A stretch of DNA of 64,000 nt from Melioribacteraceae bacterium (GTDB taxonomy: Bacteria; Bacteroidota; Ignavibacteria; Ignavibacteriales; Melioribacteraceae), in the NCBI GenBank assembly GCA_030584085.1, contig CP129490.1, positions 186,001 through 250,000 of the forward strand. Direction: 5' to 3'. Shown here in pieces: positions 19,669-60,725 of the stretch; within the stretch, counting starts at the first letter, position 1; each line of letters starts with the position of its first letter. The notes under the pieces are model-generated. The model had not been told where the DNA came from. It searched no databases and saw only the letters and a program-made list of their open reading frames with translations. The position numbers and the translations under genes were made by a program.

Positions 19669-19677
19669 TTTTTATGT

Positions 19678-19702
19678 AGAGACACAGCAGTGCTGTGTCT
19701 CT
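19678..19702. repeat. GTAG-headed palindrome, intergenic copy 1
   Basis: Arms AGAGACACAGCA (19678-19689) and TGCTGTGTCTCT (19691-19702) are perfect complements around one base, preceded by GT to give a GTAGAGAC head. The same head style (GTAG followed by GGGAC or GGGGAC) is seen in palindromes at 20934 and 59175. It may act as a hairpin after the lipoprotein gene, but its look is that of a dispersed REP-type palindrome. Confidence 0.6.
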
Positions 19703-19871: not shown

Positions 19872-21143
19872 ATGAAAAAGATAATATTTATTGTGCACTT
19901 ATTTTTTATGACCATCGTCAGTGGGCAATGGTACGTTAAAGAACTTGATAAAACTTATGCTAGTTTTAATGATATAGAGTTTTTCAATGAAGACGTGGGA
20001 TTTGTTGTTAGCGATAGTGGTTATATCTTAAGAACAACAAATTCAGGACAAGAATGGCTCGAGATCAATAGTTTAACCGAAGAAGATTTATCTGCCATTT
20101 CTTTTTATGAAAATTCTGTATGGATTTCAGGTGATAACGGTACGATAATTTATTCAACAGATATGGGATTAAATTGGCAAGTGTTCTCAACAAATATTGA
20201 AGAGAAAATTTTAGATATATCATTCGTTGGTGAAGAGTTAGGATTTGGAGTTACATTAAATAGTGTATTAAAAACAACTAACTCAGGAGCCGCTTGGAGT
20301 AATATCCATTCAAGTGATGCTTTATACAATAGTATCAGTTTCCTTGATGATAATATTGGTTTTGCAACAGGAGAAATAACGACGGGGAGTAATTTCAACG
20401 GTATTATTGATAAAACTACTGATGGCGGAGAAACATGGACACGAGTTGTAACGACACCGGAAGGTGGGACTATAACATCAATGTTTTTCCTAGATGACAC
20501 TTTAGGCTTTGCAACCGGGCTAGATTCTCATTTTCTTAAAACATCTGATGGTGGAAATACCTGGCTGCATAGCTATGTTGAAATGAAAGGGCAGTATGAA
20601 TTTGAGGATATATTTTTTGTGAGTGAACAATTAGGGTGGTTAGTCGGTTGGAATAGTGTTATCCTTAACACAACTGATGGGGGTGAAACTTGGACAAATC
20701 AAATTTCAGAGTTGCCAATTGGATATGTAACTGCTCTACACTTTTTCGATCAAAATAATGGGATTGCAGTTGGTGGAGATGCTGGGGCTAATGGATTTGT
20801 GTTAGCAACCAACAATGGAGGAATTACCTCAATACGTGACGGAGATAAAACACTTTTATATCCCTTTACCCTCGAACAAAACTATCCCAATCCCTTTAAT
20901 CCAAGTACAAATATAAAATTTACAATTTCCAACGTAGGGGACGAATATATTCGTCCCCTACAGACCAAGTTAATTGTCTATGATATTCTTGGTAGAGAAG
21001 TGAAAATATTATTAAATAAACCGATGCATGGCGGAAATCATAATATTGAATTTAATGGTACAAGTTTACCGGGTGGAATTTATTTTTATAAACTTACAGT
21101 TGGTAGCTTTATTCAAACACGAAAGATGGTATTGCTCAAGTAA
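19872..21143 (+). CDS. Ycf48/BNR-repeat secreted protein with T9SS C-terminal sorting domain
   Basis: The 423-residue product has a signal peptide (about 1-20), then a beta-propeller of sialidase/Ycf48-like repeats: blades such as LRTTNSGQEWLEI, YSTDMGLNWQVF, LKTTNSGAAWSNI, KTTDGGETWTRV and NTTDGGETWTNQ. The last 90 residues form a type IX secretion sorting domain with FTLEQNYPNPFNPSTNIKF and a final GGIYFYKLTVGSF--TRKMVLLK. The protein should be exported and attached to or released from the surface. Between the two strands of the sorting domain the chain reads VGDEYIRPL, which is the translation of a perfect palindrome at 20934-20961. Function of the propeller is unknown. Confidence 0.88.
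   Translation: MKKIIFIVHLFFMTIVSGQWYVKELDKTYASFNDIEFFNEDVGFVVSDSGYILRTTNSGQEWLEINSLTEEDLSAISFYENSVWISGDNGTIIYSTDMGLNWQVFSTNIEEKILDISFVGEELGFGVTLNSVLKTTNSGAAWSNIHSSDALYNSISFLDDNIGFATGEITTGSNFNGIIDKTTDGGETWTRVVTTPEGGTITSMFFLDDTLGFATGLDSHFLKTSDGGNTWLHSYVEMKGQYEFEDIFFVSEQLGWLVGWNSVILNTTDGGETWTNQISELPIGYVTALHFFDQNNGIAVGGDAGANGFVLATNNGGITSIRDGDKTLLYPFTLEQNYPNPFNPSTNIKFTISNVGDEYIRPLQTKLIVYDILGREVKILLNKPMHGGNHNIEFNGTSLPGGIYFYKLTVGSFIQTRKMVLLK
20934..20961. repeat. Perfect 28-bp GTAG-headed palindrome inside a coding sequence
   Basis: GTAGGGGACGAATA (20934-20947) is followed directly by its reverse complement TATTCGTCCCCTAC (20948-20961). It starts on codon position 1 of the T9SS cargo gene and is translated as VGDEYIRPL plus the first base of the next codon. 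The frame continues afterwards into the standard TKLIVYDILGREV strand. The head matches the intergenic palindromes at 19676 and 59176. Confidence 0.75.
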
Positions 21144-29677: not shown

Positions 29678-31120
29678 ATGTGTTTTAGAAAATATTTGAT
29701 GCTGATTGCTGTCCTTGGAATCAATGTCTATCCTTCTGAATTTCAAGATTTTCTAAGTAGAGTAAACAGCATAAATAATCCAACGGATAAGCAAGCCGTG
29801 GTTGATAGTTTTTTGATTCACGCTGATTCAGTTGGAGTTCCGTTTGTGGAAGGAAATACAGCTAACTTTCTTTACAAAGGAAATGTAAGCTCGGTACAAG
29901 TTGCCGGAGATTTCAACGGCTGGAGTTCATCGGCTATGTCTCGCTTAAGTGGAACTGATTTATTTTATCTAACCAGAAATTTTGAACTTGATGCTAGGTT
30001 TGATTATAAGTTGGTTGTAAATGGACAAATGATTTTAGATCCGCGTAACCCCAATACAGTTCCGGGTGGATTTGGTAAAAATTCCGAACTGGCAATGCCG
30101 GATTATGTTCAACCATGGGAAATTGTTTACAATCCAATTGTTGAAAGAGGAAAGCTGACTAACTTTTCTTTGTCTTCCCAAATCATGAACAGAAATTATT
30201 CTGTAACAATTTACTTTCCTGTTGGTTATGATAGTGCAAAATCCGGAGGCTACTCGACAGCATTTTATCAAGATGGAAGCGATTATTTAAGTCTTGGTTA
30301 TGGTTGGGTTATTTTGGACAATTTAATTTCACAAAATATAATTGAACCAATTTTAGGAGTTTTTGTTAGACCAACAAACAGAAACGATGAGTATGCTTAC
30401 GATAACCGATTTAAATATGCAGAGTTTTTTGCAAATGAATTAGTCCCTCATATTGACTCGATGTTCAATACTACAAAATCTCCGCAAAATAGATTGGTCA
30501 TTGGCGATTCATTCGGCGGTAATATTTCTGCGTTGATAAGCTACCAATACCCGGAAGTATTTGGTTTATGCGGACTTCATTCGGCAGCATTTTGGCCTAA
30601 CGATTATGAAGTATATAACATGATCGTAAATGGAGAAAGGAAAGATATAAAGTATTACTCAGTTTGGGGAAGTTATGAAAGCTTGTTCACTAACATGCGA
30701 AACTTCCAAAGCGAAATGATCTCGTTGGGATATGAAATAGACGGTAAAGAATTTCATGAAGGACATAGCTGGGGATTATGGCGAGCAACAACTGATTTAA
30801 TTTTGGAATATTTCTTCCCATCAAATACGACAAACGTTGTAATTGATGAATTAGTTAATGAATTTGTTTTGTATCAAAACTATCCTAATCCGTTTAATCC
30901 ATCTACAACAATAAAATTTTCAATTCCCCATTCTGAATTTACAACACTTAAAGTTTATGATCTATTGGGTAGAGAAGTCGATACTTTACTTGATGAGTAT
31001 CTGGTTCCCGGTACATATCAAATGGAATTTGATGGCAGCAAACTTACTAGCGGCATATATTTTTATACTTTATATCTCAACGGAAATATTCAAACAAAAA
31101 AAATGACATTAATAAAGTAG
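29678..31120 (+). CDS. Secreted esterase with N-terminal CBM48-like domain and T9SS sorting domain
   Basis: I start at ATG 29678; a TTG at 29666 adds four residues. The 480-residue product has a signal peptide, an early-set CBM48/E-set domain (about 60-145, VQVAGDFNGWSSSAM), an esterase D-type alpha/beta hydrolase (about 150-380) with nucleophile elbow VIGDSFGGNISAL and late histidine in FHEGHSWGLW, and a C-terminal T9SS domain with LYQNYPNPFNPSTTIKF. Enzymes of this build are often feruloyl or enterochelin-type esterases or acyl transferases acting on sugar esters. The substrate is unknown. It is divergent from the peroxiredoxin and starts a long codirectional run. Confidence 0.9.
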   Translation: MCFRKYLMLIAVLGINVYPSEFQDFLSRVNSINNPTDKQAVVDSFLIHADSVGVPFVEGNTANFLYKGNVSSVQVAGDFNGWSSSAMSRLSGTDLFYLTRNFELDARFDYKLVVNGQMILDPRNPNTVPGGFGKNSELAMPDYVQPWEIVYNPIVERGKLTNFSLSSQIMNRNYSVTIYFPVGYDSAKSGGYSTAFYQDGSDYLSLGYGWVILDNLISQNIIEPILGVFVRPTNRNDEYAYDNRFKYAEFFANELVPHIDSMFNTTKSPQNRLVIGDSFGGNISALISYQYPEVFGLCGLHSAAFWPNDYEVYNMIVNGERKDIKYYSVWGSYESLFTNMRNFQSEMISLGYEIDGKEFHEGHSWGLWRATTDLILEYFFPSNTTNVVIDELVNEFVLYQNYPNPFNPSTTIKFSIPHSEFTTLKVYDLLGREVDTLLDEYLVPGTYQMEFDGSKLTSGIYFYTLYLNGNIQTKKMTLIK

Positions 31121-59174: not shown

Positions 59175-59204
59175 TGTAGGGACAATTCATGAGTTGTCCC
59201 TACA
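59175..59204. repeat. GTAG-headed palindrome, intergenic copy 2
   Basis: TGTAGGGACAATTCA (59175-59189) faces TGAGTTGTCCCTACA (59190-59204); the arms are reverse complements with one mismatch (A59186-level pairing broken by G59193). The element begins 5 bp after the aldo/keto reductase stop. Its GTAGGGAC head matches the palindromes at 19676 (GTAGAGAC) and 20934 (GTAGGGGAC). It could act as a weak terminator hairpin. Confidence 0.6.
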
Positions 59205-59453: not shown

Positions 59454-60725
59454 ATGAATATCCATCTCAACCTCAAACAATGTCTTTTTGTCATCCTTAT
59501 CGTTTTATTCACAACCAATATTTTAGCACAAACAGATTTCTGGGTGCCTGTTAATAATGGGATGACAAGTTTTAATCCTAGCGATCTTGCAGTTAATTCT
59601 AATGATGTTCTTTGTCTCGCAACACGCGGTGACGGAATCTTTGTTTCTACAAACGCCGGTGGATTGTGGGTTCAAAAAAATAATGGTCTTACTAATTTGG
59701 AAGCTTGGACGGTTGCCATAAATTCAGCAGACGAAATATTCGTAGGTACTTGGGATGGAATATTTAAATCAACAGATAATGCGGAGAACTGGGTTAAACT
59801 TGAAACCGGTCTTACATTTAATCAAATTAGAGAAATTACAGTCGCGTCGAATGGATATATTTTTGCAGTCGCTCCAAATTACGGCGTCATAAGATCGGTT
59901 GATAATGGAGTAAATTGGGTTGGTGTAAATAATGGTCTATCAGGAATTCCAAATACTATAGCTGCTGATTTACACGGACAAATAATGCTAGGTAATAATC
60001 TTGGTGAAATATATTTCTCTAATAATTATGGTGATGGTTGGACGAAATCAAGTTTGGGACTTCCGCAAACAACTAGTGCTCCAATTCTTGCATTGTTAGA
60101 AACTTCTAATGAAAAATATTTTGCTGGAACCGGAGATGGACTTTATATGTCAACCGACTATGGATTAAATTGGAGCCAGGTTCATGATGGTGGTGGTAAT
60201 GGCTGGGTTCATTCGATGACAACAGATTACCAGGACAATTTAATTATTGGGACAGGCCAAAGCGGTGTATTCGTATCCGGCTTCCCAAACGGAACTTGGT
60301 TTAAGGATATGAATGAAGGGTTGACTCACCTTGGAGTTTATTCTTTAGTCGCAAATTCATCTAACAATATTTTTGCAGTTACCGGTGAGGGAATTTTCAA
60401 AAGTGAACCTCTCACAAGTGTGGAAGATAACGATGAAATTCTCACTATAAATTTTCAATTGTATCAAAATTATCCTAATCCATTTAATCCAACGACAACA
60501 ATAAAGTTCTCAATACCAATGGACATTAAAGGTGAAACGTTAAACACAAAACTTGTAGTTTATGATGTTCTCGGTAAAAAGGTGACAGTATTGGTAAACC
60601 AAAAGCTACAGTCAGGAACTCATGAAATTCAATTTGCTGCTGGAGATTTTTCGAGCGGAATTTACTTTTATAAATTAGAAATTGGTAACATTACCGACAC
60701 AAAGAAAATGCTGTTAATAAGATAA
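59454..60725 (+). CDS. BNR/Ycf48-like secreted protein with T9SS C-terminal sorting domain
   Basis: The start follows CAGGAGGCATCAA. The 423-residue product has a signal peptide (about 1-25), a sialidase-type propeller made of units such as FVSTNAGGLWVQKNNGL, FKSTDNAENWVKLETGL, RSVDNGVNWVGVNNGL and YMSTDYGLNWSQVH, and a final T9SS sorting domain with FQLYQNYPNPFNPTTTIKF, TKLVVYDVLGKKV and GIYFYKLEIG--TDTKKMLLI. It should be exported through the type IX system, whose machinery is not in this window. It is similar in length and plan to the cargo protein at 19872-21143; that one has a palindrome in the matching part of the sorting domain and this one does not. Confidence 0.9.
   Translation: MNIHLNLKQCLFVILIVLFTTNILAQTDFWVPVNNGMTSFNPSDLAVNSNDVLCLATRGDGIFVSTNAGGLWVQKNNGLTNLEAWTVAINSADEIFVGTWDGIFKSTDNAENWVKLETGLTFNQIREITVASNGYIFAVAPNYGVIRSVDNGVNWVGVNNGLSGIPNTIAADLHGQIMLGNNLGEIYFSNNYGDGWTKSSLGLPQTTSAPILALLETSNEKYFAGTGDGLYMSTDYGLNWSQVHDGGGNGWVHSMTTDYQDNLIIGTGQSGVFVSGFPNGTWFKDMNEGLTHLGVYSLVANSSNNIFAVTGEGIFKSEPLTSVEDNDEILTINFQLYQNYPNPFNPTTTIKFSIPMDIKGETLNTKLVVYDVLGKKVTVLVNQKLQSGTHEIQFAAGDFSSGIYFYKLEIGNITDTKKMLLIR

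Follow-up and report, generated by a model that had tools for sequence, protein, structure and literature searches.

A perfect, GTAG-headed palindrome of 28 bp is translated in frame within a T9SS type A sorting domain, and REP palindromes occupy the same loop, in the same frame, in 22 of the 124 C-terminal sorting domains (CTDs) that score above the Pfam cut-off in this genome, the other 102 being without one. The explanation that we prefer, at a probability of roughly 0.8, is that these are RAYT-type REPs, probably moved by RAYT, which have been tolerated in a permissive loop, have spread with the CTD paralogues and have been exchanged for other repeats. Many other secreted proteins of this bacterium have repeats of this sort in the same loop, which therefore seems to be a site at which mobile DNA can insert and leave the protein intact.

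A palindrome in the loop of a sorting domain

The window, meaning the whole stretch of 64,000 nt that was analyzed, contains the following features:

19872-21143, plus strand: cargo gene of 423 aa with Ycf48-like BNR repeats and a sorting domain (ORF, profiles)
20880-21140, plus strand: T9SS C-terminal sorting domain, from NYPNPF to the end (PF18962, TIGR04183, alignment A1, model)
20934-20961, no strand: double-foot REP of type A, perfect 28-bp palindrome (14/14 pairs)
20934-20960, plus strand: nine codons, VGDEYIRPL, from the palindrome in the reading frame of the ORF
19676-19702, no strand: related REP (GTAGAGACACAGCA/TGCTGTGTCTCT family) that has lost the 3′ foot, right after the stop of the ORF preceding the target gene
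30878-31117, plus strand: third CTD of the window, insert absent (sequence comparison)
59176-59203, no strand: intergenic REP of type B with one mismatch (pattern match)
60468-60722, plus strand: CTD with the heptamer-like insert MDIKGETLN in the same loop (sequence comparison)

The original prediction held that a perfect 28-bp palindrome, headed by GTAG and opening on a codon boundary, contributes nine residues between two beta strands of a T9SS sorting domain, and all of this has been borne out. The palindrome, GTAGGGGACGAATATATTCGTCCCCTAC, has no spacer and is the only match in the window at up to three mismatches. A chance palindrome was considered and rejected, as none appeared in 100 shuffles and copies exist elsewhere in the genome. 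The host gene belongs among the carriers of a type A sorting domain by its Por_Secre_tail profile, which scores 31 bits for PF18962 (cut-off 27) and 35.8 bits for TIGR04183 (cut-off 23).

The position of the insert was examined in AlphaFold2 models, which give a predicted fold, secretion lying outside what such a model tests. For the sorting domain, the model from alignment A1 (25 rows, including nine CTDs picked for having no insert) has a mean pLDDT of 81 and places the insert at residues 32-40 of the modelled stretch, between strands 22-29 and 40-47, with the last of the nine residues counted in the second strand and a pLDDT of 67 for the ten-residue block that holds it. An insert-free natural paralogue (A2, 11 rows, mean pLDDT 91) is predicted to have strands 9-16 and 20-28 with a three-residue turn between them, so that the long strands follow in the same order with and without the insert. 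The inserted residues are thus predicted to occupy the loop that joins the first long strand to the second. That they lengthen this loop, as had been proposed, agrees with alignment A1, where the nine insert-free paralogues are shorter by 7 aa at that place. A Foldseek search with the CTD model returned mostly generic Ig-like folds, with the T9SS entries 8glk and 8qb1 at ranks 19 and 31.

The remaining two CTDs of the window had been described as lacking the insert, and both do lack this palindrome, but the one at 60468-60722 has the different, heptamer-like insert and measures 85 aa, against 80 aa for the insert-free CTD. An alignment to an empty site had also been proposed. For a different cargo gene, the best match in a congener has an empty CTD, but the only close orthologue found for the window gene, in the metagenome bin SURF_28 (records QZJX01; 98.8% identity over 1534 nt), has the identical palindrome, and the insertion event in the window gene itself was therefore not observed. 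An orthologue search of 30 genomes, including its own, gave a best match of 42% identity outside its own genome and no direct empty site.

Several repeats at one recurrent site

The genome, a single contig of 3.74 Mb, has 136 matches to PF18962, of which 12 fall below the cut-off, leaving the 124 CTDs. The 30 best matches and those above the cut-off of at least 234 bp were fetched as 70 loci, from which 65 CTDs, one per locus, were parsed; the CTDs left out are matches of 231 bp or less, and by eye none of the 39 pattern places described below falls in one of them. Among the parsed CTDs, a REP palindrome is present in 22, a heptamer-like repeat (TGAAACG-like) in 6 and neither in 37. The palindromes are of five types:

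Type A, nine CTDs: VGDEYIRPL and variants
Type B, six CTDs: VGTTHELSL
Type C, five CTDs: VGTSRDLSL
Type D, one CTD: VVDAKFAST
Type E, one CTD: VETPNRESL

An in-frame REP in the loop of an export signal, as originally proposed, is thus well supported, but it is far from a single event. The heptamer-like inserts, which yield KRETSN-like peptides, occur in the same loop of the window CTD at 60468-60722 and of L083, L092, L099, L101 and L106. In a congener, G001, three CTDs (L246, L250 and L264) carry in this loop a palindrome without GTAG feet, CCCCCCTTTCCAAGGGGGG (SPLSKGGMQGG).

All 22 copies begin in frame with GTA or its variant. The frame that begins with TAG opens on a stop, and the second is open in types A and C and closed in B; the GTA frame is open in all three, and a perfect palindrome would give the same peptide in either orientation. 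Because of these two properties, surviving genic copies tend toward the GTA frame. The net gain at the loop is 7 aa in 19 of the copies and 3 aa in the other three, with no clean gain of 28 nt seen. In L184 and L196, and in one of the L197 copies, the junction lies one residue later. An additional type A copy sits in a CTD interrupted by a stop codon. Inspection of the junctions by eye gave nothing firm in the way of a target-site motif, and no target-site rule was found. When one of each of three near-identical pairs was dropped, type was unrelated to the similarity of the flanks (350/1000 permutations).

A genome search for such palindromes had been suggested, and the pattern GTAGNG...CNCTAC, which takes in some imperfect and perhaps chance matches, occurs at 39 places, compared with 16 for a reversed control pattern. 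Fourteen of the 39 lie inside CTDs, which make up an estimated ~0.8% of the genome (124 x 240 bp), giving a binomial probability of 5e-20; when each type at the CTD site is counted once (5/30), the value is still 4e-6. The genome holds several REP families with identical copies, and a perfect member of the GTAGAGACACAGCA/TGCTGTGTCTCT family is found in frame within a congener CTD (L254).

The same families also occur outside CTDs, repeats of this kind being ordinarily intergenic. Types B and C are found between genes, and for 14 of the 15 intergenic copies listed in this genome the 3′ end of an ORF is at most 25 nt away or is overlapped by up to 12 nt. Other GTAG/CTAC families of this genome, beginning GTAGAGACTTGATTAATC, GTAGTGAACGCAAA and GTAGCGGCTTC, stand close to ORF 3′ ends, at distances of 2-24 nt (L159, L160, L162, L164, L167, L168 and L170), as if they were terminators. 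With the stricter pattern GTAGGG...CCCTAC, matches were present in at least 26 of 58 genomes, this one included. In the fetched loci of relatives, 15 distinct copies stand in long ORFs: five in RAYT genes, five in CTDs, four in a second loop of G012 and one in a linker immediately before a CTD. The second loop, NN.GFEIQR[...]WEKIGFVEG, holds types B and C in frame (L145, L186, L187 and L191), and the CTD is consequently not the sole repeated landing site. A scan of contigs returned 33 stretches. Ten loci with 11 matches are CTDs, and their labels are Melioribacteraceae, Melioribacter or Ignavibacteriales, whereas 23 others do not read as CTDs; its pattern was strict enough that absence from other taxa says little.

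Double-foot REPs and RAYT genes

The palindrome has the feet of a double-foot REP (5′ GT[AG]G and 3′ C[TC]AC around a long hairpin) and, with its 39 pattern places, is repeated in the genome. It differs from a classical GTAG REP, in which the foot at one end is not paired, as all four GTAG bases pair with CTAC. It would belong to the non-autonomous elements that RAYT (TnpA-REP) enzymes cleave and join in single-stranded form. Such cleavage, at CT, has been shown for other groups, according to a source that also calls REP dissemination poorly understood (PMC8266576).

RAYT transposase genes of the order likewise contain REPs in frame. At L179, type B stands on both flanks of the gene and in frame within it, and the protein from this locus, used as a query, found matches in 61 of 116 genomes, with one in the genome studied here. 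Thirty RAYT loci were collected and 26 parsed (an earlier NHCH being taken as the start in L212). Between HUH and W[QH], 16 of the 26 have an inverted repeat, 12 being counted as GTAG-headed, and 10 have none; an upstream control stretch of equal length has one in 0 of 26. Among the four unparsed loci, L221 and L227 show such a palindrome.

The RAYT gene of this genome (G000:C1:3223796-3224350, L222) has the NH[IFV]H and WQ motifs (NHIH, WQ), and in place of YIxNNP it reads YIEQNP, compared with YIENNP in L200 and YIINNP in L216. Between HUH and Y, 42 nt past the start of the HUH motif, it carries GGGGTCGATCATCATCGACCCC in frame. The insert consists of two repeats, and REPs lie around the gene; its flanks hold D-like and GTAGGGGTCGAA-type repeats, and exact type A was not seen there. 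For NF047646 (REP-associated tyrosine transposase) the protein scores 49.6 bits (E 3.7e-13), below the cut-off of 80, so that by sequence it appears related to that equivalog and is not filed as it. It is likewise predicted to work like an enzyme of subclass 2.4, and is not filed as one. Movement of the repeats by RAYT was not observed in the genomes compared.

Just upstream of this gene is a Type ISP restriction gene (G000:C1:3220860-3223532, an ORF in L014), of which 891 codons are seen, the start being outside the locus. It contains two in-frame REP-like inserts, VGVDHHRPRR...NENIRPLR and YVVDANLASPKNKNVGVDDDRP...MDTKFASTT, which resemble the RAYT insert, as if pairs of REPs had been copied locally into a neighbor gene.

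Exchange at the loop, competing explanations and significance

Extra residues appear to be harmless in this loop, and secretion would presumably go on unaffected. In the order of events that we infer, the element would then have spread from one cargo gene to another as CTDs were duplicated and recombined, and been swapped, at the same site, for other REP types or unrelated repeats. Exchange was followed at two ranges. At close range, 30 CTDs of SURF_28 were parsed from the best 30 of 71 matches together with three earlier loci, and pairing by upstream DNA of at least 90% identity gave 20 pairs with CTDs of this genome: 10 REP-bearing (nine of the same type and one of different type), two with the heptamer in both and eight empty in both. 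No filled/empty pair occurs among the 20. Ten SURF_28 CTDs, some of them short of upstream DNA, have no partner, and three of these carry a REP. The pair of different type joins the gene at 3591 kb to L291 (95.8% identity over 2089 nt), and the CTD DNA is near-identical except for one tract of 41 nt, which holds type B in one genome and type A in the other. A local assembly error might conceivably account for this difference, SURF_28 being a metagenome bin. With type unchanged in nine of the ten pairs that bear a REP, and filled/empty pairs absent from the set, exchange would be slow.

At longer range, seven comparisons of five genes with two congeners (G001 and G002; best matches, synteny not checked) span 388-501 aa at 65-75% protein identity, and the element differs in all seven, one of them being empty: B versus empty, B versus VETQHAVSL, heptamer versus type A-like (three times), C versus type A-like and C versus heptamer-like. 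Matches shorter than 380 aa or below 65% identity stand outside this set; among the short ones, the genes at 1392 kb and 2471 kb share their type with L239 (A/A, 123 aa) and L249 (B/B, 121 aa), respectively, and the others differ.

CTD tails do recombine, as two further pairs attest. The gene at 1387 kb matches L301 of SURF_28 over its final part, as far as the palindrome and across it, and the gene at 3589 kb matches L291 through its heptamer insert; in both, a different CTD tail and different downstream DNA follow. Some of the spread and exchange, or even all of it, may be due to homologous recombination, and the exchange could be short-tract gene conversion. No near-identical donor of the exchanged tract was found in this genome, where the best match is 85%; among the examined loci, the best is a G002 sequence that matches the SURF_28 tract at 96% over 55 nt.

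It is possible, though we think it the less probable course, that one REP entered one CTD once, and that all copies arose through CTD duplication and gene conversion, with the types coming from conversion between paralogues and not from new insertions. This overlaps the explanation favored here, which likewise has spread by paralogues, and it would fit the codon and frame shared by all 22 copies, the recombination seen at the 1387-kb and 3589-kb genes and the weak tendency of type to follow flank similarity when all 22 copies are kept (36/1000 permutations). However, the loop holds five REP types and a heptamer-like repeat here and a GTAG-free palindrome in a congener, its junctions vary (+7 or +3 aa, and the shift by one residue noted above), and types B and C are found between genes too. 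A more speculative idea, which we hold doubtful, is that the loop is an exchange port, where REP hairpins in CTDs, through being nicked by RAYT or through stalling forks, would set off recombination between cargo genes and so shuffle export tails; the tail switches at 1387 kb and 3589 kb would then be its scars.

Retention for function, either through a peptide that tunes sorting or through an mRNA hairpin that regulates cargo expression, is unlikely. The strong enrichment in CTDs would suit it, as would the fold of the palindrome region as single-stranded DNA (-15.4 kcal/mol, z -6.8) and the fact that the palindromes of the nine type-keeping SURF_28 pairs differ by one base in total, but one site yields five different peptides, 102 of the 124 CTDs do without it and unrelated repeats occupy its place. 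Across types A, B and C, 20 copies have 15 changes from consensus, nine nonsynonymous and six synonymous (26-28% synonymous being expected by chance), and all 15 leave a mismatch, with none compensated. Judged from these changes, neither peptide nor hairpin looks strongly maintained. As for ancestral loop residues whose codons form a palindrome by coincidence, nothing was found in their favor, and they are exceedingly improbable: exact copies of the 28-mer recur in the genome, with near copies outside CTDs, and a perfect 28-bp palindrome has a chance of ~2e-4 in 64 kb (our own arithmetic, equal bases). The shorter insert-free CTDs of alignment A1 led to their rejection. The same residues encoded by unrelated codons, which would have pointed to such an origin, were not seen; the residues vary while the palindromic DNA recurs.

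The explanation by tolerated and exchanged RAYT-type REPs has partial precedents. For subclass 2.4 of TnpA-REP (RAYT group 4), Quentin et al. 2018 (PMC6006769) describe double-foot REPs with 5′ GTAG and 3′ CTAC feet, REPs that flank the RAYT gene and in-frame REPs within it between HUH and Y, all of which have counterparts here. As far as that account goes, insertion concerns the RAYT gene, with others cited for unrelated genes, and a secretion signal as a recurrent insertion site is not mentioned. Di Nocera et al. 2013 (PMC3733652) likewise report GTAG REPs within coding sequences, including different REPs at about the same recB site in two Xanthomonas species; their GTAG foot is described as not paired and the emphasis of that work is on replication and repair genes, whereas the foot here pairs with CTAC and the insertions share a single loop of an export domain that recurs in the genome. 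Rickettsia palindromic elements also stand in frame in many unrelated genes and are thought to be compatible with the fold, but they are described as ~150 bp long and situated in unrelated metabolic genes, not at one repeated site (reviewed in PMC10969869). A search of the open-access literature, supplements aside, found no report of REPs in T9SS sorting domains. In-frame REPs are already known; what was not found in print is a site of the T9SS signal that is used recurrently, with different REPs and unrelated repeats taking one another's place.

Intragenic REPs have been reported as scattered cases, whereas here one structural site is repeated more than 100 times in a single genome, making the fate of in-frame REPs countable as filled, empty, exchanged or decayed. 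REP dissemination could be followed at the CTD loop by comparing close strains. If the doubtful exchange-port idea were true, the site would offer several unrelated mobile repeats a natural place to land with the reading frame kept. Finally, the loop of the T9SS signal seems to accept foreign peptides and could serve for tagging.
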